Origin: a virus | DNA length: 53,371 bases | Direction: 5' to 3' (one strand) | IMG/VR virus record: IMGVR_UViG_3300020473_000702 | Coordinates: 1-53,371 of that record | Shown: positions 36,182 to 50,635 of the stretch, one piece after another | How the letters are laid out: each line of letters opens with the position of its first letter | How positions within the stretch are numbered: position 1 is the stretch's first letter | Notes under the pieces: generated by a model | What the model was told of the DNA's origin: nothing | Database searches by the model: none | What the model saw: only the letters and a program-made list of their open reading frames with translations | Made by a program: the position numbers and the translations under genes

Positions 36182-39100
36182 ATGGCCATAAATTTTCCCT
36201 CAACCGCAGGGCAACTAACTGATGGTAGTTTCACCTATACTACAGGTGGGAGGACTTGGGCGTGGGATGGTGTTACTTGGGAAGCTGTTGGTATTGATAG
36301 TACAGGTACTGATGACCTAGCAGTTGTAACTAATAGGGGTGCTACTACTAATGTACAACTTAGTCTTGATGCTGGATTTATAAGTGGTGGTACTTCAACA
36401 TTCACTGGTCTTACTAGTAATGTACAGTGGTCTAGGACTGATAACGCACTGAAATGGGATGATGGATCAGCAGCATTATTTGGTGCTAGTGATGATTTAG
36501 CAATCTCTCACACTACTGCTGAAGGTAATAGGATAGTTGCTCTTGGTGGTTTAGAGATTAATAGTGATGCTATTGCTTTAAAGAATCAAGCAAGCAATGC
36601 TACATTAATTGAAGCATCTTCTGGTACAGGTGGTGAAGTAAAACTATATCAGAATAATGTAGCTAAGGTTACTGTAACAAATTTAAAAACCACTATAGCA
36701 AATACTTTAGAAGCTTCTGGTTTAACTTATCCTTCAAGTGATGGTCTGGCTGGACAAGCTATACTTACTGATGGTTCGGGTGGTCTTAGTTTCGGATCTG
36801 TTTCTGCTTCAGAGACACTTGATAGTGTAGCTGATAGAGGAAGTAGTACCGATCAAACACTATCAATTGGTGGTCTTATATTAAGTGATACAGATTCGAT
36901 AGTTTTTGGTACAGGATCTGATCTAACTATCGTTCATACAGGTAGTAAGAGTCAGATAAGACATTCTAATGCTGGTAATCCACTATCAATTGAGAGTGCA
37001 TATGATGTTAATTTATTAAAGAATGGAACCAGTGACCTTCTTGCTAAGTTTGTTCCTGATGGAGAGGTTAAGTTATATCATTCTGCAGCAGAGAAATTAG
37101 CTACTACGGCGACAGGAATTACAGTTAGTGGTGTTGTTACTGCTACTGGTGGTACTTCAACTGATTGGAATGAGGCTCATGGTTGGGGTGATCATAGTAC
37201 ACAGGGATATTTAACTTCAATATCTGCAGAGACTGATCCAGTCTTTGTTGCTTCTGCTGCATATAATATTACTAATACTAAGATAACTAACTGGGATGCA
37301 GCATATGCATGGGGTGATCATGCTTCTGGTGGGTACGTAGCACTAACTGCTTTGTCTGTTGGTGCACCAAATGCTGCTAGTGGTAACGGAAACATAACAT
37401 ATAACAGTGCAAATGGAGTCTTTTCATTCACCCCACCAGATCTTAGTAATTATTTAACATCTTACACGGAGACCAGCACCCTTGCTAATGTTATTGCTAG
37501 GGGATCAACATCAAATAACTCTGCTACCATTGGTGGTAATGGTAGTACAGGTGGTATCACGCTTGCTGATGGTCTTCTATCAGTAAGAACAGGTACTGGA
37601 AACGTGGCATCTATCGACCTCTATTGTGAGGTTAGTAATGCACATAAGGTAAGTATAAAAGCACCATCACATTCTAACTTCAGTGGTAACATTAACTTCA
37701 CGTTACCTGGAACTCACGGTAGTGTAGATCAAGTTTTACGTACAGATGGATCGGGAAATACAAGTTGGGTTAATCAGACTGGATCTTATACTGAGACTGA
37801 TACACTTTCTTCAGTAACTGGTCGTGGTAGTACAACTACAACTGCTATAACTGTTGGTGGACTGACTGTTTCTGCTGGTAATTCTGTTGCAGAGTTAAAC
37901 TTATCTACTGATAATAATAATCAATATAATGTAACATTAAAAGCTCCATCAGCATCCTTATTATCTGGTAACACAACCTTTGTATTCCCACCAAATAACG
38001 GTAGTGCTAACCAAGTTCTTATCAGTGATGGATCTGGTAATACATCTTGGTCAACTATATCAGGTGGTGGTGGAGGAGGATCTAGTGTTACTATTAATGA
38101 TGCAGCACCTGGATCACCTAGCAGTGGTGATCTATGGTGGAACTCTAACGCTGGTCAGTTAAAGATATACTATAACGATGGTAGTAGTTCGCAGTGGGTT
38201 GATGCTGCTGGTGGTGGTGGAGGTAGTGGTGGTTCTGGTATAACAGTATACTCTGGTGTAGCAAACTATCCACTTGCTTCAACTCATGAAGGACAGATAG
38301 CATATGCTAGTGATATTAATGCAATGCATTACTCTGATGGAAGTGATTGGACAGGTCAGAGAATAGTTACTACAACAGAAAGTGATTCTGATTTTGATAC
38401 CTTGTTAGGTAACTATGAGAAGACATATACTCTTTCTGCGAATGAACATACTGGTGGTACTACATCAGAGAATTCTGCTAGAAAAGTTATTAAGTTAGTA
38501 GATAATAATGGTACAGATGGAGGTAAGTTTACTCTTAATGTTGGTGGTGGTTTAACATCAACACTTACTACTGATGCATGGAGTAACCAATCTATAAACC
38601 TAGGTCTATCTCTTGGAAGTATTCATAACTATACTTTGAGTTCAGATATTAATGCTGGACCTTATGCTACTGATCTAACGCTCCAAGATTCTGTTAGAGG
38701 TATTAGCAATACAATCAAGTTTGCTGGTGCTGATGGACTTACTGTTGAGAGAACAGATGCTAACACAATAACCTTCAGGCAAGGTGGTACTTCGGTTACT
38801 CAGTACACCGATGATATGGCGAAGGATGCTACATGGTCTTCCATAAGCAACGGTACTCATACTGGTATTACTTTTGCCTATGATAGTGGTACAAAATTCC
38901 TCAGTGCTACCGTTACTGGTGGTGGAGGAGGTGGTGGTGGATTAACCTACACATTAACTGGTAGAAATACAAGTTCTACTAATGCATTCATTGATCTAAC
39001 AGATAATGCAGCAACTCCAAATGTTAATAGCATAGAGTTTATTGGTAGTAATGGAACTGATGTTGCATGGGATGGTGCTAACAAAAGAATTACTATCAAC

Positions 39101-39814
39101 AGTAAAGACTATGCAGTAGGAGCTAATGCTGCTGCTAGTGGTGGTGGAGGTTTATCGTTAACTGGTAGCACCTTTACATACACACCACCTGACCTAACAA
39201 GTTTCTTAACATCTGTACCTCAAGCATCAGCAACAATTCTTGGTGGTATTAAAGTAGGTGCTAACCTTACTATGGATGCTGCTACTGGTGTTCTTAGTGC
39301 TAACGCTGGAGCATATACATTACCTACTGCTGGTGTTACTGCTAGTGGAACTCTTGGTGGTGTTAAGGTTGATGGTTCTACTGTTACTATTGATGGTAAT
39401 GGAGTCATCAGTTCAACAGGTGGATCAACTGCTCCATCTATAGGTGATGTTAATGCAACATCAACTAGCATTGCTGATAATGCACGTGGTGAAGTAACAA
39501 TTACAGGACATAAAGGGTATGTTCTTTATAAGATTACTTCATCACATGAAGCTTGGGTAAGATTGTATGTTGATGATGCTACAAGACAAGCTGATAAAGA
39601 TAGAAGTGAAGGTGCTGATCCAGCACCAGGTAGTGGTGTAGTAGCAGAGGTTAGAACTTCTGCAGCAAATCAAGAAGTTCTTATAACACCTGGTGTTATG
39701 GGATTCAATAATAATAATCCAAGAGATGAAAACATTTACGTTTCAATAAATAATAGAAGCGGTTCAGCCGCCACTATACAAGTGACCCTAACCGTTCTAA
39801 AAATAGGAGAGTAG
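36182..39814 (+). CDS. Tail fibre-like structural protein 3 (1210 aa)
   Basis: Starts MAINFPSTAGQLTDGSFTYT with a W-x-W-D-G-x-x-W motif, an N-terminal domain shared with the adhesins at 42.5 and 46.4 kb. The body repeats LDSVADRGSSTDQTLSIGGL-type modules, the TDPVFVASAAYNIT/WGDHA modules, and SGDLWWNSNAGQLKIYY. The last ~125 residues (from about 1086) match the C-terminus of the 290-residue protein at 46.4 kb. It looks like a fibre built from shared parts. A clear ribosome site and late box precede it. Confidence 0.88.
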   Translation: MAINFPSTAGQLTDGSFTYTTGGRTWAWDGVTWEAVGIDSTGTDDLAVVTNRGATTNVQLSLDAGFISGGTSTFTGLTSNVQWSRTDNALKWDDGSAALFGASDDLAISHTTAEGNRIVALGGLEINSDAIALKNQASNATLIEASSGTGGEVKLYQNNVAKVTVTNLKTTIANTLEASGLTYPSSDGLAGQAILTDGSGGLSFGSVSASETLDSVADRGSSTDQTLSIGGLILSDTDSIVFGTGSDLTIVHTGSKSQIRHSNAGNPLSIESAYDVNLLKNGTSDLLAKFVPDGEVKLYHSAAEKLATTATGITVSGVVTATGGTSTDWNEAHGWGDHSTQGYLTSISAETDPVFVASAAYNITNTKITNWDAAYAWGDHASGGYVALTALSVGAPNAASGNGNITYNSANGVFSFTPPDLSNYLTSYTETSTLANVIARGSTSNNSATIGGNGSTGGITLADGLLSVRTGTGNVASIDLYCEVSNAHKVSIKAPSHSNFSGNINFTLPGTHGSVDQVLRTDGSGNTSWVNQTGSYTETDTLSSVTGRGSTTTTAITVGGLTVSAGNSVAELNLSTDNNNQYNVTLKAPSASLLSGNTTFVFPPNNGSANQVLISDGSGNTSWSTISGGGGGGSSVTINDAAPGSPSSGDLWWNSNAGQLKIYYNDGSSSQWVDAAGGGGGSGGSGITVYSGVANYPLASTHEGQIAYASDINAMHYSDGSDWTGQRIVTTTESDSDFDTLLGNYEKTYTLSANEHTGGTTSENSARKVIKLVDNNGTDGGKFTLNVGGGLTSTLTTDAWSNQSINLGLSLGSIHNYTLSSDINAGPYATDLTLQDSVRGISNTIKFAGADGLTVERTDANTITFRQGGTSVTQYTDDMAKDATWSSISNGTHTGITFAYDSGTKFLSATVTGGGGGGGGLTYTLTGRNTSSTNAFIDLTDNAATPNVNSIEFIGSNGTDVAWDGANKRITINSKDYAVGANAAASGGGGLSLTGSTFTYTPPDLTSFLTSVPQASATILGGIKVGANLTMDAATGVLSANAGAYTLPTAGVTASGTLGGVKVDGSTVTIDGNGVISSTGGSTAPSIGDVNATSTSIADNARGEVTITGHKGYVLYKITSSHEAWVRLYVDDATRQADKDRSEGADPAPGSGVVAEVRTSAANQEVLITPGVMGFNNNNPRDENIYVSINNRSGSAATIQVTLTVLKIGE
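37229..37269 (+). repeat. 41-base perfect repeat, copy B
   Basis: Second copy of the sequence at 32822-32862. Confidence 0.9.
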
Positions 39815-39819
39815 TTCCA

Positions 39820-42252
39820 ATGGCAGTAAACTATGGTACAAAGAATGTAAATTCTGATACAGTTGGATGGACTAGACTGGATGTATTAAATGCATTAGAG
39901 GAAGTCTTTTCTGATCTAGGATTTCATGGAGGAACTGCAAAGACTGGTGTTCCTGTATGTGCTTTGTGGCCAGGTCAGACTAATAATGAAGAACCAGTTT
40001 CTCTTTTCAATGGACTAGAGAGTAGTGATCCTGTAAATTATGATTGGATGCATTGTGGTGGTACTCTGACTAATAATAGTAGTAGAGCAGAAAGAAAGTT
40101 TCAAGTAACTGCTAATGGTACTACATCATATTATGTGCAAGAGACTTGGATACCAACTGCACTTAATGCTGGTTCTGATACTCTAACGGTTCCTTATAAT
40201 GATGTACTAACAACAGGAACAGAACTTGTTTTCATTCCTAGTGGTGGAGATGCTAATAATGTTATTGGTGGACTAACACTCAATAAAACTGTCTATGTTA
40301 TTCGTGTCAGTGCTACTGAGATAAAGTTAGCAGAAAACCTAACTAATGCTGGTAATGGTACTGCTATTGATTTAACTGGTGATCCTCCTGGTGGATGGAC
40401 ATCTACTACTAAGTTCTTTACACCACAGTCAGGTTCAGCTAACCAAGCGATCACTACCTATCAAGGTGATCAATTAATATTTAATGTTGATGCTACTGGA
40501 TTCCATATATGTTCTGGTAGTTCGTATGATGCTAATAAAACTTTAGAGTCTGCTAATTCAGCAAACATTGCACATGTACCTGGGCATAGTAGTGGATACC
40601 TTACTGATAATGGTACAACCACAGTCACTTTTGAAACTAAGTATTGGATACAGTCGGAAGATAATACTAATGTAGAAAGCTTTGATAAACCATCTACCTT
40701 ACCAAAAGGTAATGTGCATCAAGGATATCATTATAGTCCAACAGCAGGATTGATTGGACAATCTGGTAGTAGAGTAGTTGAGTATTGTTATGCTAATGAT
40801 ACTAATGCAACTATGAAGGCAAGCATTACTATATTACCAAAGTATACTAGTCAGGCTGAGTACTTTGATCCTTATTGGGATGTTGATATTGCAGGTACTG
40901 TTGGTGGTGCTGCTGCTGAAAAAGTATTGAAGTTAAGAGTATCACGATGGCATTATGGACGTAACTATCAATATAGAGGTCGAGTTAAGTCAGTACATGT
41001 TCTTAATTCAACTGATGGGTGGAGTGGTACTCCAACATTTACTATTTCTGGTACAGATATAGGTGGTGTTACTCCTGGAAATGATGTAAAGTTTGGAACC
41101 AATACAGATGAATCTGCTACTGATGTTGGTGATGGTACATGTAGTCTAGTGTTTACAGATTATGGTGCTGGTACAAGCTTCTATCAGAAGAGTGCTACTG
41201 GTGACTATGCTGTTCTGAAACTAGTACATGATGCTGCTAAAGAATGGGGAACTACTTACTGGGTTTTTGCTCCAAGTCAGACTAATCCCTACACTATGAG
41301 GATATTCGGTGGTGCATATTGGGAGACTCAAAATTGTTGGGGAACGACAGCAACACCAGATAATACTGGTAGATATGATTATGATTGGAAAGGTCTGTAT
41401 GGATTTATGGATGGTGTCTATGCTGGAACTACACACTGGAGTTATTATGTAGATCCACATGATAATCAAGATTATTATTATAAAGCATACTTTGCTGCTT
41501 CTTCTCAACCAACAGATTATAAATTACGTCTTAAGTATTGGAAACCAGTTGCACCAATGGATACTTCCTATGCTGTAATACAATTCCTTCAAGTTGTTAA
41601 TGATCAACCGACAGAGTACTTTACTTTCTCTTTACCTACAGATGGATTTGGAGTTACTAGTCCAGGTGTAGATCTAGATCATTTATTTCATGGTCACATC
41701 GTAGAGTACGATAGAGGATCTGGTGGTACTAACCCTAACCGATCTGTTGATATTGATATGCATCTCCCTGGATATGATTACAGTACTAGTCACCCAGGAT
41801 TTGAACCTGCAAATAGTCAAAGTCTAAGTATGGAGAGTGCATATGGATACTTAAGAAACACTGGAAGTTCATATGGAAGACAAAGAGATAGGTGGTCGGT
41901 TAATATTCATACTGATAATGATTATACTTACAAGAGTATAATACAGTACTATAGGAATCATGTTTATGATAACACTAATTCAGCTATGGATTACTATCGA
42001 CCAATTAAAGGAATACCATTACTGAATTGCTTTGCACCGTGTCCATACTATCTTCCAGATGATTTTGTAATGATACAGATAGCATCTACACCAGGTCTTA
42101 CTGCTTACACGACAGGTGATACTATTACTATTAGTGGTAGTGAAAAGTATGAGATTATAGTAGCAAGTTATGAGAACTCTCAGACTGGTCTTGATCAGGT
42201 GTCTAATGGTTCTACCATTGGTATGGCTTTCTGTGCGAGGATCGTAGGGTAA
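39820..42252 (+). CDS. Large virion structural protein (810 aa)
   Basis: Starts MAVNYGTKNVNSDTVGWTRL, unlike the MAINFP adhesins. It is beta-rich and aromatic-rich with many Tyr and Trp. A region near residues 216-285 (GDQLIFNVDATGFHIC then VTFETKYWIQSED) has a GDxLxF strand and His/Cys positions vaguely like cupredoxin-type domains, which is only an impression. It starts 5 bases after the previous stop and its stop overlaps the next ATG (TAATG). Its location on the particle is unknown. Confidence 0.8.
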   Translation: MAVNYGTKNVNSDTVGWTRLDVLNALEEVFSDLGFHGGTAKTGVPVCALWPGQTNNEEPVSLFNGLESSDPVNYDWMHCGGTLTNNSSRAERKFQVTANGTTSYYVQETWIPTALNAGSDTLTVPYNDVLTTGTELVFIPSGGDANNVIGGLTLNKTVYVIRVSATEIKLAENLTNAGNGTAIDLTGDPPGGWTSTTKFFTPQSGSANQAITTYQGDQLIFNVDATGFHICSGSSYDANKTLESANSANIAHVPGHSSGYLTDNGTTTVTFETKYWIQSEDNTNVESFDKPSTLPKGNVHQGYHYSPTAGLIGQSGSRVVEYCYANDTNATMKASITILPKYTSQAEYFDPYWDVDIAGTVGGAAAEKVLKLRVSRWHYGRNYQYRGRVKSVHVLNSTDGWSGTPTFTISGTDIGGVTPGNDVKFGTNTDESATDVGDGTCSLVFTDYGAGTSFYQKSATGDYAVLKLVHDAAKEWGTTYWVFAPSQTNPYTMRIFGGAYWETQNCWGTTATPDNTGRYDYDWKGLYGFMDGVYAGTTHWSYYVDPHDNQDYYYKAYFAASSQPTDYKLRLKYWKPVAPMDTSYAVIQFLQVVNDQPTEYFTFSLPTDGFGVTSPGVDLDHLFHGHIVEYDRGSGGTNPNRSVDIDMHLPGYDYSTSHPGFEPANSQSLSMESAYGYLRNTGSSYGRQRDRWSVNIHTDNDYTYKSIIQYYRNHVYDNTNSAMDYYRPIKGIPLLNCFAPCPYYLPDDFVMIQIASTPGLTAYTTGDTITISGSEKYEIIVASYENSQTGLDQVSNGSTIGMAFCARIVG

Positions 42253-42546: not shown

Positions 42547-45483
42547 ATGGCAATAAATTTTCCCAGTAGTCCTAGTGTAAACGATACCCATACCCATAAT
42601 GGTAAGGAGTGGACGTGGAATGGTACATCTTGGGTTCAAAGTACAAATGCAAGCAATTATACTTTACCTATTGCTACTGCTGGTGCTCTCGGTGGTATTA
42701 GGGTAGGCAATAGATTAACAATAGATTCTAGTACAGGTGTCTTGGATGCTGATGTACAAGGGGGCGGTGGATCTTCTTATACTGATAGTGATGTTGATAC
42801 CCACTTAAATCAATCTAATCCTACTAGTGGTCATGTCCTTTCATGGAATGGATCTGATTATGCATGGGTAGCTCAGACTACTGATACAAATACACAACTA
42901 ACAACTGAACAAGTTCAGGACATTGTTGGTGCAATGGTTGATGGTGGAACCGAAACTAGAATAGGTGTAACGTATGATGATACTGCTGGAAAATTAAATT
43001 TTGTTGCTGACGATCAATCATCTACTCCATACACTAACAGTGATGTTGATACACATCTGAATCAATCAAACCCAACTAGCGGATATGTTCTTGCGTGGAA
43101 TGGATCTGACTATACTTGGGTAGCTCAGACTGGTGGAGGAAGTGGTGGATCAGGTGGTAGTATACTACAATTAATACAGGAGATTGGTCCTTCTGGTCAG
43201 ATCAGTGCTGTATCTGGACAGGGTAGCAGTGCTGCTTGGATAGATGTTATTGATAAAGACATTACTATTACTGCTGGTGCTAATAAGAGAGTAAAGATTG
43301 AAGTTAATGGTGAACCTAAATTAGATGGTTTCAGAACCATGAGGTATGAGATCAGATTGATACGTACCACTGGAGGAACTGCAACAACATTATACGAAGG
43401 TTTTCAAGGTCTAGCTGATAGTAGTGATAACTATTCAACTATGAATGGTGTCCTTTACTTAGATACACCAGGTGCAGGTACACACAACTATAAGTATCAG
43501 TTTAGACAGGTAGTAAGTTGGAATAGTAGTACTGCTAAAGTAGAACCTGATTCAATGGTTATGCTTCTCACTGAGATGGATCTTAGTGCTAATGTTTTAT
43601 CTGCTAGTGATGTTGATAACCACTTAAATCAGTCCAATCCTACTAGTGGATATGTTTTAAGTTGGAATGGTAGTGACTATGCATGGGTAGCTCAGACTAC
43701 TGATACTGATACAGTTTATACCAACAGTGATGTTGATACACATCTCAATACAAGTGGTGCTTCTTCAGGTGAAATTCTTCAATGGAATGGATCTGACTAT
43801 GCTTGGGTAGCACAATCTAATACTACTTCATTTATTGCTCTAACTGATACACCAAATTCTTACAGTGCTGATCAGTGGGTAAAGGTTAATGCTGCTGGTA
43901 ATGCTATTGAATTTACTACTGCTCCTGCAGAATCAGATACTCTTGATACAGTAACGGGAAGAGGTGCGACAACTACAAATGATGTAACAGTTGGGAATTT
44001 TATTTGTGATAACTTAACTGTTAATGGTACTCAGACAATAATCGATAGTAACACTGTAAACATTGGAGATAATATTTTAACTCTTAATAGTGATGAATCT
44101 GGTACTCCATCACAGAATGCTGGACTTGAAATTGAAAGAGGTACATATACCAATGTATCAATTCGTTGGAATGAGACTACAGATAAGTGGCAGTATACTA
44201 ATGATGGTAGTAACTATTCTGATATTGGTAGTAGCAATTATACCAACACTGATGTTGATACACATCTGAATCAATCTAATCCTACTAGCGGATATGTTCT
44301 TTCATGGAATGGTTCAGACTATGCATGGGTAGCTCAGACTACTGATACAGATACAAATACATTCACTGGTCTAACAGGTACACCGTCTTCATACACTGCT
44401 AATAAATGGTTGAAGGTAAATGCAGGTGGTACTGCTTTAGAATATACTGATGCTCCTTCTGGAGCTTCTGTTACTGTATCAGACAATGCTCCTTCAGGTC
44501 CAAGTGCTGGTGATCTATGGTGGGACTCTGATAATGGTAGGTTAAAGGTATATTATACTGATGCAACACCTGATTCTCAGTGGGTAGATGCTAGTCCACT
44601 TGGTGCTAACAGTAGTATTGGTGTTGGTAATACAAGTATTTCTATAACTGATACTGGTACTAACGGTACTATCCAATTCAATACAGATGGTACTGACCGT
44701 TGGGAGATCACTAGTGGTGGTCACATTCTTCCAAATACAAATGCTTCATTTGATATAGGTAGTGCAGAGTATAAGGTAAGACACTTGTTCTTATCAGACA
44801 ACAGTCTTAAGTTCGTTGATGATAATAATACAGAACATGCATTGAGTGTTAATAGTAACAAACTACACTACGAAGGCAAAGAGGTTCTAGCAAACTGTGT
44901 CTTTACTGGATTGGATAATAATGATACTGTCAAATATAATGGTACGAACTGGGTTAATGTAGAGTTTCCATCAGCTTTTGATGGAACTTTAGCTGGTGAT
45001 CTAACTGTTGATACTAATGTATTGAAAGTTGATACTGCTCAGAACCAAGTAGGTATTGGTACTGCTAGTCCTAATAGTCTTCTACATTTGTATCAACCTA
45101 CTGATGCTGTGTATATTACCTTTGGTCAAGGTCAACATAATACAAACTACTGGCTTGGAACCACTGGTACTACTGCTGGATTCTTTATAGAGCAAGGTAG
45201 CAGTAATAATAGTTTACTAACAGCAGATGCTTCTGATTATGTTTCATTGTATGGTGCTGGAACCAAGAGGTTTGAGACTACTGCTAGTGGTGTCACGATA
45301 ACAGGAGACATAAGTGTTACTGGTAGTGGTTTATATAATGATGGAGCTTTGGATGCTCGTATTAATACTGCTACTGCTACATCTAATCAACTTCTTAGTT
45401 GGACTGGTAGTGATTACGATTGGATTGATCCACCAACACCAGCACCACCAGCATTTCAATCTAACTGGAGGATACCATTATGA
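42547..45483 (+). CDS. Tail fibre-like structural protein with SDVDTHLN repeats (978 aa)
   Basis: Starts MAINFPSSPSVNDTHTHNGK with WTWNGTSW, the shared N-terminal domain. It contains five copies of a 34-residue module with the core DVDTHLNQSNPTSGYVLSWN followed by GSDYAWVAQT. It also has a RGATTTNDVTVGNF module, GDLWWDSDNGRLKVYY, and a late FETTASGVTITGDI segment typical of marine phage fibres. It ends in PTPAPPAFQSNWRIPL. It is likely to be an adhesin with repeat-based length variation. It overlaps the next gene by 4 bases. Confidence 0.88.
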   Translation: MAINFPSSPSVNDTHTHNGKEWTWNGTSWVQSTNASNYTLPIATAGALGGIRVGNRLTIDSSTGVLDADVQGGGGSSYTDSDVDTHLNQSNPTSGHVLSWNGSDYAWVAQTTDTNTQLTTEQVQDIVGAMVDGGTETRIGVTYDDTAGKLNFVADDQSSTPYTNSDVDTHLNQSNPTSGYVLAWNGSDYTWVAQTGGGSGGSGGSILQLIQEIGPSGQISAVSGQGSSAAWIDVIDKDITITAGANKRVKIEVNGEPKLDGFRTMRYEIRLIRTTGGTATTLYEGFQGLADSSDNYSTMNGVLYLDTPGAGTHNYKYQFRQVVSWNSSTAKVEPDSMVMLLTEMDLSANVLSASDVDNHLNQSNPTSGYVLSWNGSDYAWVAQTTDTDTVYTNSDVDTHLNTSGASSGEILQWNGSDYAWVAQSNTTSFIALTDTPNSYSADQWVKVNAAGNAIEFTTAPAESDTLDTVTGRGATTTNDVTVGNFICDNLTVNGTQTIIDSNTVNIGDNILTLNSDESGTPSQNAGLEIERGTYTNVSIRWNETTDKWQYTNDGSNYSDIGSSNYTNTDVDTHLNQSNPTSGYVLSWNGSDYAWVAQTTDTDTNTFTGLTGTPSSYTANKWLKVNAGGTALEYTDAPSGASVTVSDNAPSGPSAGDLWWDSDNGRLKVYYTDATPDSQWVDASPLGANSSIGVGNTSISITDTGTNGTIQFNTDGTDRWEITSGGHILPNTNASFDIGSAEYKVRHLFLSDNSLKFVDDNNTEHALSVNSNKLHYEGKEVLANCVFTGLDNNDTVKYNGTNWVNVEFPSAFDGTLAGDLTVDTNVLKVDTAQNQVGIGTASPNSLLHLYQPTDAVYITFGQGQHNTNYWLGTTGTTAGFFIEQGSSNNSLLTADASDYVSLYGAGTKRFETTASGVTITGDISVTGSGLYNDGALDARINTATATSNQLLSWTGSDYDWIDPPTPAPPAFQSNWRIPL

Positions 45484-46359: not shown

Positions 46360-47232
46360 ATGGCCATAAATTTTCCAACATCACCATCAACTAATGATAC
46401 TCATACCCACAGTGGTGTTACGTATGAGTGGGATGGTACTTCATGGCTAGCACAAGGTAGCACAGCAACTTATACCTTACCAACTGCATCATCAACAGTA
46501 CTAGGTGGTATTAAAGTAGGTAATAGATTAACAATAAATTCTGGTGTATTAGAGGCAGACGTACAAGCAAGTACTTATGGTAACAGTGATGTTGATACTC
46601 ATCTTAATCAATCTAATCCTACCAGTGGATATGTTTTAAGTTGGAATGGTAGTGACTATGCATGGGTAGATAACGCAGGTTATAGTAACAGTGATGTTGA
46701 TACACATTTGAATCAATCAAACCCAACTAGCGGTCATGTTCTTAGTTGGAATGGTTCGGACTATGCATGGACAGCTCAGACTGGTACAACTTACAGTGCT
46801 GGTACTGGGTTGAGTCTTGTTGGTACTACATTTAATGTTACTAGTACATACACAAGCTCAAGGACAACTGCAGTTGCAACAACATCAAGTCTAGCTGATC
46901 AAGCATCAGGTAACTTAGACATTACTGCAGCAAAAGCTTACGCACTACTTAAGATACAAACATCACATGCAGCATGGGTAACTCTTTACACTGATACTAC
47001 TAGTAGAACTAGTGATGCTAATAGAAACATAACAACTGATCCACTACCAGGTTCAGGTGTTATTGCAGAGGTACTACTATCTGATGGTGGTGTACAAAAA
47101 ATTTCTCCTGGTTTGATAGGATACAATGATGATGCAACACCAAGTACTACAGTATATGCAAAGGTTCAGAATAGAAGTGGTAGTGCTGCTACCATAATAG
47201 TAACACTCCATTACCTTGCTCTAGAGGGTTAA
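46360..47232 (+). CDS. Short tail fibre-like protein built from shared ends (290 aa)
   Basis: The N-terminus MAINFPTSPSTNDTHTHSGV with WDGTSW is the shared adhesin head. Residues about 73-141 hold two SDVDTHLN modules. The last ~120 residues (from about 169) match the end of the 1210-residue protein: AxxKxYxLxKIxxSHxAWVxLYxD, then PGSGVIAEV, SPGLIGYN and VQNRSGSAATIIVTL. So it is a minimal fibre: head, two repeats and tip. Starts 1 base after the previous stop. Confidence 0.85.
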   Translation: MAINFPTSPSTNDTHTHSGVTYEWDGTSWLAQGSTATYTLPTASSTVLGGIKVGNRLTINSGVLEADVQASTYGNSDVDTHLNQSNPTSGYVLSWNGSDYAWVDNAGYSNSDVDTHLNQSNPTSGHVLSWNGSDYAWTAQTGTTYSAGTGLSLVGTTFNVTSTYTSSRTTAVATTSSLADQASGNLDITAAKAYALLKIQTSHAAWVTLYTDTTSRTSDANRNITTDPLPGSGVIAEVLLSDGGVQKISPGLIGYNDDATPSTTVYAKVQNRSGSAATIIVTLHYLALEG

Positions 47233-47233
47233 T

Positions 47234-50200
47234 ATGGCTCAGTATATTGTAACGCTGAAGCAACGTGATCAGTTGGATGGTTTCTATGCTGATATGAAGG
47301 AAGGTGGGTATAAGCTTATTAGTAAGAGACCTATTAGTAGATGTACACATTATGATCTAACAGAGAGTCAAGCAGATACTATTGCTGGTGACTCTAGAGT
47401 TCTTGCTGTTGAGTTACATCCAGATGAAGATGATAACCTTATAATTGGACCGCATGGATATACTAACAACGAAGTAGCTGTTGCTGCTGGTGATTTTTAT
47501 AAGGGTATTACTTCAGATTCAGGTGATTATCAGTGGGGGCACTTACACTGTGCTGGTGATGATGCACAAAGAAGAAAAGGAACATGGGGTTCTGGATCAG
47601 TCACTGATACTGCTGAATGGTTTAATAATGGTAAGCATGTTGATGTAGTTATCTGTGATAACAATGCTGCTTATGATTGTCAAGAGTGGTACAGTACACA
47701 TGACCCAGCTAAGAATAGATATGTTCAGTATGATTGGTATGCTAACCACAACACAGAGGCTCTTAGTATAGATGATGATGGATACACATCAGCACCTAGT
47801 AACTATACAAAGTACTATCCTAATGCTGGTCACACAGATTATCATGGTACTCATGTAGCAGGTACTGTTGCTGGTAAGTATTATGGATGGGCTACTGAAG
47901 CAAACATCTATACCATTCAGTGTTTGAGTGGGATGGATCCTAATCCATTGCCTACTATGATCATGATGGATTATTTGAGAGCATTCCATAGATCTAAAGC
48001 TATTAATCCAGAGACAGGACATCGGAATCCTACCATTACAAATCATAGTTGGGGTTCGGGATGGGATTTAGGAGCAAATGGTTCAGGTATTTTTGATACT
48101 GGATATACTATTTCAGATATAACTGAAATAGTTTGGAGAGGAACTACATATAACTCATCTAATCCTGGTCCATCTGGTTGGACTATGAGTGGTATTCATC
48201 AGGACTTTGGTATTGGACAAGATAAGACATATATTCCCTACTACAACACAGCAATGGCTGCTGATATTGAGGATGCTGTAGAGGATGGTATAGTAGTTAT
48301 TGCTTCAGCAGGTAACTCAGATTTCTATGTTGCAACTGACTCTACAAGTCCTGATTGGAATAACATTGTCCAGTTTGATACTTCTAAAGTAAGTTTTAAC
48401 ATGTCTGCAGGCCAAGGTCGTGCCTATTATAATAGAGGATCAGCACCAGGAAATGCACCAGGTGCTATCTGTGTTGGTTCTCTTGATAAAGCTAGTGACT
48501 TCTCTAAGTCATCATTCTCATGCTATGGTGAGGCAGTAGATGTATGGGCTCCTGGTACTCATATTAATTCGGCATTTAATTCTCTAGGATATAATGATGC
48601 AAAGTATGGTGGAGATAATTATTTCTATGCTATAAGTGGAACTAGTATGGCTTCACCACAGGTGACTGGAGTTGCAGCATGTCTAGCAACAGGTAAAGAA
48701 AGGTTTACTAACAGTGATGTGAAATCTTTCCTTCAGAACTACTGTAAGGATGGTGATATGACCTTTGATAATACTTATACACCTTCAAGACATGCAGTAT
48801 ATCAACTTACTCTTACTGCAACCACAAATGGTTGGGATGTAAGTGGTCCTGATAGATATAATTCTCATGTTAATGCTATTAATCCTACGATTGAGATCTT
48901 TGAGGGTGATACAGTAGAGTTTGTTTTCAATTCACCTGAACCTCCTCTTTTTGTTACATCATCTCCTGTAACTGGGTTGACTCCTGGTTCACCACCACAA
49001 GGACAAGTCTCTTGGTTCCCACATCAAGGTACTAGTACAAGTGGAACATTCAATGCAACTCCAGGATGGCCAGGTAGTGCTGGTGATTACTACTATGCGT
49101 GTGGTGATATGGGATTATCATTTACTACATGGCCACAAGGTATTCTTAGAGTGCATCCCCCACTACACTATGATGATCCGCATATTGGTGCTGGATCTGT
49201 AAACAAATATTTGTTATCAGCAAACCCAAGACCAGTAGCAGATGGGTTTCCTAGTAGGTGGTATCAGCAACAACTTAAGGGTAGAAGAAGAGATGTAGAA
49301 GCTACCTCAAATAACCCACCCAATATGCAACTCTATCCTAGAGAGAATGTATATCATAGAGGGTTTAAAATACATCAGAGAATACTTTTAGATGAAGCTT
49401 ACTGGATAAATGATGTAACATTACCTTCTAATACTGATAGTACTAATAGTGAAAATCAGGTAAAGGATTTCGCTCTCGATTCTAATGGAAACTTTTGGAT
49501 TTGTGGAGCGAGGGATGATAATGCTGGAGCATTGAATAGTTATATTGTGAACATAACTAAGACAGGTGTATATAATGCATCAGTTGATTGTAATGCTGCT
49601 GATTCTTTAACTCCTTTTGGAATTGCAGTTGATGATAATGATGATATCTATACCTATCATGGGTATGGAAGACTTGCTAAATTTAGTCTGAGTGGTTCTT
49701 CTTTAACTCAGGATTATTGTAGAGAAAGTGAGTGGGGTGGTGGAAGTACTTTTGGTGAGGGTATGGGTGGTAGAGGATGTTTATTTGCTAATGGAACTAA
49801 CCTTACCGTGTGGGGTAATAGATCTGGTATTCATTTAGGACATACTTTTGATGGTTCTACTGGTGATGTAAGTTCTGGTGGTTACACTTATGTTAATGGT
49901 GGTAACCAAGCTTATGTTTATTTCTATGGTGCTAATAAAATAGGTGGTACAATTTATGCATGTGGACGTTCTTATGGTGGAAACACAAACGGTAGCAATG
50001 CTTTTTGGGTAGTAGCAACTGTAGGTTATGGGGTTGCAGGTTCAATGAAGTTTTATAGTGGTGTCTCTAATGCTACATGTTATGGAGTAACAAGAGATTC
50101 TGATAATAAATTTTATGTTTGTGGACAGATGGATAATGTTCCAACACTCATGAAGATTGATGCCTTTAACAATGGTGTTATAGGACAAGGAGTTGCATGG

Positions 50201-50632
50201 GGTAGAAAGTTAAACACCTCTGGTAGGTATAGTGATATTGCTGCTGATTCTCAAGGTTGTGTGTACGCAGCAACTGAAGGTGGTCAGATAGTGAAGTATA
50301 ATAGTAGTGGTACAATCATCTGGGCTAAGTCTGTTGCTAATCAGATTCAGAGAATAACAATAGTAGATGATGTAATACATGGTATTGGTACTATAGGAAA
50401 TACTTCATTTAAAGTTTTCCGATTACCTATCTCAGGTGAGGGTCTTACTGATTGGAGTATCACTGATTATAGTTTCACCTATACTAATCAAGGTGGTCTA
50501 GGTGGTCCCGCTACTCAAAGTGATTTTGGTTCTACTGCAAATAGTGCTGTTATATGGGGTAATTTTACATCTTCTGATTATACTATCAATCTTGCTTCCG
50601 AAGTATTTACTCCGTCTTTAACAAACTTATAA
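47234..50632 (+). CDS. Subtilisin-like serine protease with C-terminal adhesion-type domains (1132 aa)
   Basis: A peptidase S8 domain with a complete triad: D142 in VDVVICDNNA, H204 in HGTHVAG, S471 in SGTSMASPQVTG, and the oxyanion Asn in VVIASAGNSDF. The first ~65 residues resemble an I9-type propeptide (MAQYIVTLKQRDQLDGFYAD). After the protease come a cupredoxin-like stretch (about 554-643; EIFEGDTVEFVFNS and YYYACGDMG) and propeller-like repeats (about 740-1130; FALDSNGNFWICG, GIAVDDNDDIYTY). No signal peptide is visible, so it is more likely a virion part than a secreted enzyme. Its substrate is unknown. Confidence 0.9.
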   Translation: MAQYIVTLKQRDQLDGFYADMKEGGYKLISKRPISRCTHYDLTESQADTIAGDSRVLAVELHPDEDDNLIIGPHGYTNNEVAVAAGDFYKGITSDSGDYQWGHLHCAGDDAQRRKGTWGSGSVTDTAEWFNNGKHVDVVICDNNAAYDCQEWYSTHDPAKNRYVQYDWYANHNTEALSIDDDGYTSAPSNYTKYYPNAGHTDYHGTHVAGTVAGKYYGWATEANIYTIQCLSGMDPNPLPTMIMMDYLRAFHRSKAINPETGHRNPTITNHSWGSGWDLGANGSGIFDTGYTISDITEIVWRGTTYNSSNPGPSGWTMSGIHQDFGIGQDKTYIPYYNTAMAADIEDAVEDGIVVIASAGNSDFYVATDSTSPDWNNIVQFDTSKVSFNMSAGQGRAYYNRGSAPGNAPGAICVGSLDKASDFSKSSFSCYGEAVDVWAPGTHINSAFNSLGYNDAKYGGDNYFYAISGTSMASPQVTGVAACLATGKERFTNSDVKSFLQNYCKDGDMTFDNTYTPSRHAVYQLTLTATTNGWDVSGPDRYNSHVNAINPTIEIFEGDTVEFVFNSPEPPLFVTSSPVTGLTPGSPPQGQVSWFPHQGTSTSGTFNATPGWPGSAGDYYYACGDMGLSFTTWPQGILRVHPPLHYDDPHIGAGSVNKYLLSANPRPVADGFPSRWYQQQLKGRRRDVEATSNNPPNMQLYPRENVYHRGFKIHQRILLDEAYWINDVTLPSNTDSTNSENQVKDFALDSNGNFWICGARDDNAGALNSYIVNITKTGVYNASVDCNAADSLTPFGIAVDDNDDIYTYHGYGRLAKFSLSGSSLTQDYCRESEWGGGSTFGEGMGGRGCLFANGTNLTVWGNRSGIHLGHTFDGSTGDVSSGGYTYVNGGNQAYVYFYGANKIGGTIYACGRSYGGNTNGSNAFWVVATVGYGVAGSMKFYSGVSNATCYGVTRDSDNKFYVCGQMDNVPTLMKIDAFNNGVIGQGVAWGRKLNTSGRYSDIAADSQGCVYAATEGGQIVKYNSSGTIIWAKSVANQIQRITIVDDVIHGIGTIGNTSFKVFRLPISGEGLTDWSITDYSFTYTNQGGLGGPATQSDFGSTANSAVIWGNFTSSDYTINLASEVFTPSLTNL

Positions 50633-50635
50633 ATA
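50628..50635 (+). promoter_or_regulatory. Late promoter box TATAAATA
   Basis: An exact TATAAATA overlaps the protease stop (TAA 50630-50632) and lies 23 bases before ATG 50659. Confidence 0.8.

Follow-up and report, generated by a model that had tools for sequence, protein, structure and literature searches.

In T2- and T6-type phages, the gene for the gp38 adhesin lies directly 3′ of the gp37 fibre gene, and a conserved fibre C-terminus is combined with a variable tip. Tailspikes carrying sugar-cutting enzymes (capsule depolymerases) are likewise well known. Secreted S8 proteases with an I9 propeptide, such as Vibrio PA44 (1s2n), proteinase K and Tk-SP (3afg), offer a third point of comparison. 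The nearest described relatives of the gene studied here are the S8 peptidases of cyanomyoviruses (phrog_9158, T4-GC_292), exemplified by S-H9-1 QPB08157, S-WAM2 AOV61888, P-SSM2 PSSM2_297 and S-SCSM1 ORF228. These proteins are annotated only as hypothetical, as peptidases or, in the case of S-SCSM1 ORF228, as a 'baseplate wedge subunit'. S8 peptidases were reported in P-HM1 and P-HM2 without an assigned role (Sullivan et al. 2010, PMC3037559). A non-exhaustive literature search retrieved no account of a role for a cyanophage virion subtilase, nor of phage cupredoxin tails. Relatives of this subtilase occur in hundreds of viral contigs, but apparently no role has been assigned to it. Cyanophage S8 genes are already known; what appears to be undescribed is the proposed docking pair, the exchange of C-terminal cassettes and the pattern of cupredoxins reported below.

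The DNA analysed (hereafter the window) is the 53,371-nucleotide viral record IMGVR_UViG_3300020473_000702. By its DNA polymerase, which comes closest to the polymerases of Synechococcus myoviruses, for example S-H9-1 and S-RSM4 (77% identity), the window is assigned to a T4-like cyanomyovirus (Kyanoviridae), of which it is a fragment. Its subtilase gene has the family, the triad and the position 3′ of a fibre gene that characterise the other cyanomyovirus S8 peptidases, from which it differs in that its C-terminus is specific to its clade and its cupredoxin domain is degenerate. The likeness to gp37-gp38 is one of layout, comprising the fibre-then-tip gene order, the conserved fibre C-terminus and the variable tip; unlike gp38, the predicted tip protein is a protease with a propeptide. 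With the secreted proteases it shares the propeptide, the catalytic fold and the triad, but it is phage-borne, lacks a signal peptide, has a relaxed Asp motif and carries extra modules. Enzyme-bearing tailspikes resemble it in combining a virion-displayed enzyme with receptor-binding modules; they act on polysaccharide, whereas the enzyme of the window is a predicted protease. The relevant features are as follows.

36182..39814, + strand: second fibre gene, 1210 aa, with the fibre C-terminal domain (CTD) at aa 1090-1208 (locus comparison)
39820..42252, + strand: 'family B' non-protease tip-type protein, 810 aa, directly 3′ of the second fibre gene (locus comparison)
46360..47232, + strand: partner fibre gene, 290 aa, its stop 1 nt 5′ of the subtilase start (ORF, locus comparison)
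46861..47226, + strand: CTD of the partner fibre (P0002 aa 168-289), a predicted beta-sandwich and proposed docking domain (comparison, predicted fold)
47234..50632, + strand: proposed fibre-tip subtilase gene, 1132 aa (phrog_9158, Peptidase_S8)
47237..47416, + strand: I9-like propeptide, aa 2-61 (AlphaFold2, conservation)
47420..47530, + strand: linker of low conservation, aa 63-99, mean identity 0.30, where autoprocessing would probably take place (alignment)
47531..48790, + strand: S8 catalytic domain, aa 100-519, with D142, H204, N361 and S471 (Pfam, alignment, AlphaFold2, Foldseek)
48791..49198, + strand: cupredoxin-like domain, aa 520-655, whose copper ligands the window clade has lost (homology, alignment)
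49229..49342, + strand: conserved R..G..KGRR..YPR segment, aa 666-703 (alignment)
49378..50622, + strand: exchangeable cassette at the C-terminus, encoding a propeller-like region, aa about 716-1130 (DNA comparison, Pfam, AlphaFold2)

The subtilase ORF is intact from its ATG through its stop. Peptidase_S8 (PF00082) matches residues 180-504, scoring 90 bits where the cut-off is 21.8 (E 2.2e-25 with Pfam; 2.6e-28 in another search), a match well above chance level, and the phrog_9158 profile, listed in PHROGs as of unknown function, spans residues 3-512, that is, the propeptide and the catalytic domain (E 6.4e-153). Relatives were found in 38 cyanophage records by tblastn and in at least 569 stretches of IMG/VR by a profile-guided scan, 80 of these stretches being retained for comparison; many of the loci compared are viral contigs picked for their resemblance to the query. 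Close members share 41-49% identity with the window subtilase over about 500 aa. The initial annotation had remarked that subtilases do not belong to the standard structural proteins of T4. In this group they are not unusual, occurring in hundreds of viral contigs and giving exactly one S8 match each in 17 of 20 cyanophage records that had been selected for carrying the subtilase family or the fibre domain. One scan for cellular relatives, made with family-specific patterns, returned seven loci in MAG or bin contigs, possibly viral themselves. The fibre cluster shows no exact TATAAATA late promoter upstream of the subtilase gene, and the motif occurs in the window no more often than expected by chance. 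One T4-like late promoter −10 motif TATAAATA, at 50628-50635, overlaps the subtilase stop just 5′ of the next gene.

The catalytic residues follow the order Asp-His-Ser, complemented by the oxyanion residue N361, in the contexts HGTHVAG, AGN and GTSMASP. In an alignment of 102 distinct family proteins, H204, N361, T470 and S471 are invariant (102/102), and 101 proteins have D142; the one that lacks it, the divergent S-CAM1 protein, is probably misaligned at that position. The four residues Asp, His, Asn and Ser are thus retained in 101-102 of 102 relatives while identity falls to about 27%. A D-[ST]-G flank is usual at the Asp of the S8 family, yet optional. The window protein has DNN instead, a motif found in two of the 102 sequences, alongside DDP (54), DQP (13), DGE (5), DGH (4), DTG (4) and others; DTG or DSG is carried by distant members. 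Since the residues after the Asp vary widely in the clade, DNN is read as a local variant rather than a defect, and the idea that it marks a dead enzyme was ruled out: the flank drifts while the Asp stays. Among close relatives the catalytic domain has a dN/dS of 0.37-0.59. An AlphaFold2 model built from 61 sequences is confident in this domain and poor in the C-terminal half, where pLDDT is mostly below 50; Foldseek against the PDB places the domain with proteinase K-like subtilases (1s2n, E 1.2e-15, target TM 0.75). The active site is intact and conserved, and the protein is probably catalytically active.

The start of the protein is modelled confidently (pLDDT mostly about 90) as a beta-alpha-beta-beta-alpha-beta unit, with strands at residues 2-8, 27-30, 37-42 and 56-61 and helices at 11-23 and 44-51. 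The I9 Pfam profile gave no match in the window subtilase. Mean pairwise identity is 0.53 for this propeptide and 0.54 for the catalytic core, and its dN/dS among close relatives is 0-0.25. The propeptide thus equals the core in conservation, unlike the linker that follows it, a pattern that would fit a functional propeptide succeeded by a cleavable linker. Inspection of the subtilase start revealed no signal peptide, the first propeptide strand beginning at residue 2-3. In these respects the initial annotation, which had proposed an intact D142/H204/S471 triad, a propeptide-like start, an unusual DNN motif and the lack of a signal peptide, has held up.

The gene immediately upstream of the subtilase encodes a short fibre-type N-terminus followed by the CTD, of about 120 aa. 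The comparison comprised 107 distinct subtilase loci, and at the 102 where the upstream gene was in view its product ends with the CTD in 97 cases and in five with another C-terminal domain, for which no sequence relation to the CTD was detected. Of the 94 pairs measured, 78 have a single nucleotide between stop and start, and the others lie between −4 and +3, save one at −32. The CTD occupies the extreme C-terminal end of these fibres, which vary widely at their N-termini; one N-terminus matches a baseplate/fibre connector family. A search of annotated phages with the CTD only, and hence independent of the subtilase, returned 45 records, for the most part the fibre/subtilase pairs already known from the locus comparison. 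The domain is predicted with high confidence to be a beta-sandwich. Since its structure matches are all middling (Foldseek and VIA, best Z 7.8, to many unrelated beta-sandwiches, with no named fold emerging), no named family is claimed for it; a resemblance to the jelly-roll domain of Tk-SP (Z 6.7) is only a lead. Homology between the P-SSM2-type fibre C-terminus and the window-type CTD was considered and found unsupported (profile-comparison probability 0.2%). Gene order and the constancy of the CTD suggest that it may be a docking domain for the tip protein. Separately, the fibre at 42547-45483 holds five copies of a repeat about 30 aa long (SDVDTHLNQSNPTSGYVLSWNGSDYAWVAQ), and the fibre at 46360-47232 holds two; at the DNA level the copies are about 70-94% alike, and fibre genes could recombine through them.

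When the gene after a CTD fibre is not a subtilase, it usually encodes a member of family B. These proteins are 530-930 aa long and conserved at both ends, opening with MAV..NTGW and closing with CPYYLPDDF...ART. Of ten that were tested, nine are mutually related, and family B adjoins a CTD fibre in the cases checked. The window carries both pairs, one CTD fibre followed by family B and another followed by the subtilase. That one CTD precedes both a protease and a non-protease suggests that the tip role is separable from proteolysis. The notion that the CTD is the dedicated substrate of the protease was dropped as a main reading, the CTD also preceding the non-protease family B.

The C-terminal end of the subtilase behaves as an exchangeable cassette in DNA comparisons. 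The window and locus L018 are 94.6% identical in nucleotides over 46782-49377, fail to match as far as 50623 and then resume at 90%; loci L019 and L020 have the same breakpoints, with flanks at 85-87%. Three close relatives whose flanks are 85-95% identical in DNA thus carry ends unrelated to that of the window. In L019 and L020 the replacement module is a glycine-rich domain (Gly_rich_2, PF21722), and L018 and L020 also have a LamG-like stretch, as judged by motif. Elsewhere in the family this region is occupied by an esterase-type alpha/beta-hydrolase, by cupredoxins or by nothing. The subtilase-hydrolase fusions (L012:9989-12913 from S-MbCM7, L055, L070, L072 and L083) bring two predicted hydrolases together within one probable tail protein. 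Just ahead of the cassette in the window lies the segment R..G..KGxR..[FY]PR, present in 95 of 102 members either before or after the inserted modules. Many minimal family proteins end in this segment, which is possibly a docking strand.

Within the cassette, residues about 740-1130 match Reg_prop at 22.4 bits against a cut-off of 20.4, match BamB weakly and are modelled as beta-meanders at low pLDDT. The propeller-like repeats of the initial annotation are accordingly plausible only, given how poorly the C-terminal half is modelled; the more general claim of adhesion-like domains fared better, the C-terminus being an exchangeable module. A pattern search of IMG/VR yielded no homologues of the propeller. 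The only homologue in an annotated phage (about 30% identity) comes from AG-345-P14 (L009:1132-3615), where it lies close to the beginning of another tail-type gene; this suggests movement of the module among tail genes.

Residues 520-655, described initially as cupredoxin-like, are so by homology: they correspond to domains of relatives that match rusticyanin and plastocyanin profiles, one of which (L032) matches PF00127 with an E value of 1.8e-9. The type-1 copper motif H...C-x2-H-x2-M fails in the window, where PLF replaces HPF and CGDM replaces C-x2-H-x2-M, and the structure model of this section is of low confidence. At least one cupredoxin with the motif intact is found in 61 of the 102 family proteins. 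Intact type-1 copper cupredoxins also occur at varying positions in other tail genes, fibre and tip, family B included (L002:14992-16998, L010:9992-12052, L032:473-3589 and others). The S8 domains of S-BM3 and AG-345-F15 each contain an inserted cupredoxin; the divergent S8 proteins with cupredoxins near or inside the protease domain are L137:5316-13262 (S-BM3), L136 (AG-345-F15) and L115:5317-7572 (S-CAM1). Compared with L018, the cupredoxin section has a dN/dS of 1.58 (54.7 nonsynonymous and 11.3 synonymous changes) and the catalytic domain one of 0.46. Positive selection on the section was not retained, the ratio being 0.9-1.0 against L019 and L020, and the L018 value is suggestive only.

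The designation of the protein as virion-type agrees with its conserved position directly 3′ of a fibre gene and with the labelling of a homologue. In S-SCSM1, ORF227 (a fibre), ORF228 (the subtilase), ORF231 (a CTD fibre) and ORF232 (family B) are all labelled 'virion protein'. This label appears to reflect mass spectrometry, because ORF213 and ORF214 bear it and are reported as detected in CsCl-purified virions (PMC9602691), and many neighbouring genes are unlabelled. The text of the S-SCSM1 virion paper (PMC9602691) makes no mention of a protease. ORF228 is a distant homologue (31% over 400 aa), and its fibre has a different C-terminal domain. Proteomics of S-CREM1 detected 14 proteins, with no protease named among them in the text.

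We propose that the gene encodes a virion-borne, self-maturing subtilase at the tail-fibre tip, aimed at host surface proteins, a reading to which we give a probability of about 0.6. According to this scheme the subtilase would be made beside its fibre partner, as gene order indicates, and the predicted I9-like propeptide would maintain the fold of the enzyme and keep it inactive in the cytoplasm of the host, where synthesis proceeds without a signal peptide, and would then be cut in cis. The beta-sandwich of the fibre CTD would dock the subtilase as gp37 docks gp38, a step suggested by the constancy of the CTD and the family B parallel. Displayed on the virion, as the label of the S-SCSM1 homologue suggests, the protein would bind the host surface through its exchangeable end (the degenerate cupredoxin-like domain and the probable propeller), and the protease would cut surface proteins during adsorption. 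More tentatively, at rather less than even odds, the locus may exemplify a general 'plug-in' tip system in which the CTD takes either a subtilase or a member of the second tip family and these tips bear swappable adhesin, esterase and copper-binding cupredoxin modules, the subtilase opening the protein coat of marine picocyanobacteria.

The leading rival is an assembly or maturation protease that trims the partner fibre or a baseplate protein in morphogenesis and is then retained in virions as a by-product. Proteases that mature phage particles are known, the coupling with the fibre gene is constant and tight, and minimal members (551-577 aa) hold little besides the protease and the R..YPR segment. 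However, the fibre CTD is equally conserved beside the non-protease family B, and C-terminal modules swapped in the manner of host-recognition modules, another hydrolase among them, are nothing that such a protease would need; accounting for neither observation, this explanation seems to us unlikely. The three functions offered by the initial annotation separate accordingly: self-maturation and cutting of host surface proteins fit best, and processing of the fibre is less probable, since a non-protease partner is likewise found beside the conserved fibre domain. Enzyme folds can be reused in phage tail parts, and the S8 fold might serve as an adhesin platform to which proteolysis is irrelevant, as the relaxed Asp motif and the cupredoxins inside the S8 domains of S-BM3 and AG-345-F15 would allow. 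Retention of Asp, His, Asn and Ser in essentially all 102 proteins despite their divergence, and conservation of the propeptide equal to that of the core, make a mere scaffold quite improbable. Finally, the protein might act within the host cell, serving takeover, defence or exit, and simply co-purify with virions. This would suit the missing signal peptide, and cyanophage virion preparations do contain non-structural proteins (PMC9602691, PMC10665884). Against such a role stand the fixed position in the fibre locus, the linkage with the fibre C-terminal domain and the adhesion-like, swappable ends, and we hold it to be very improbable.

Because members of the family are annotated as hypothetical proteins or even as baseplate wedge subunits, the finding corrects their annotation. 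Together, the fibre/tip pair and the cassette exchange point to a gene that possibly determines which hosts cyanomyoviruses recognise, a group for which few receptors are known. If the proposal is true, the fibre-tip protease would be a protein-cutting counterpart of the tailspike depolymerases in very abundant marine phages.
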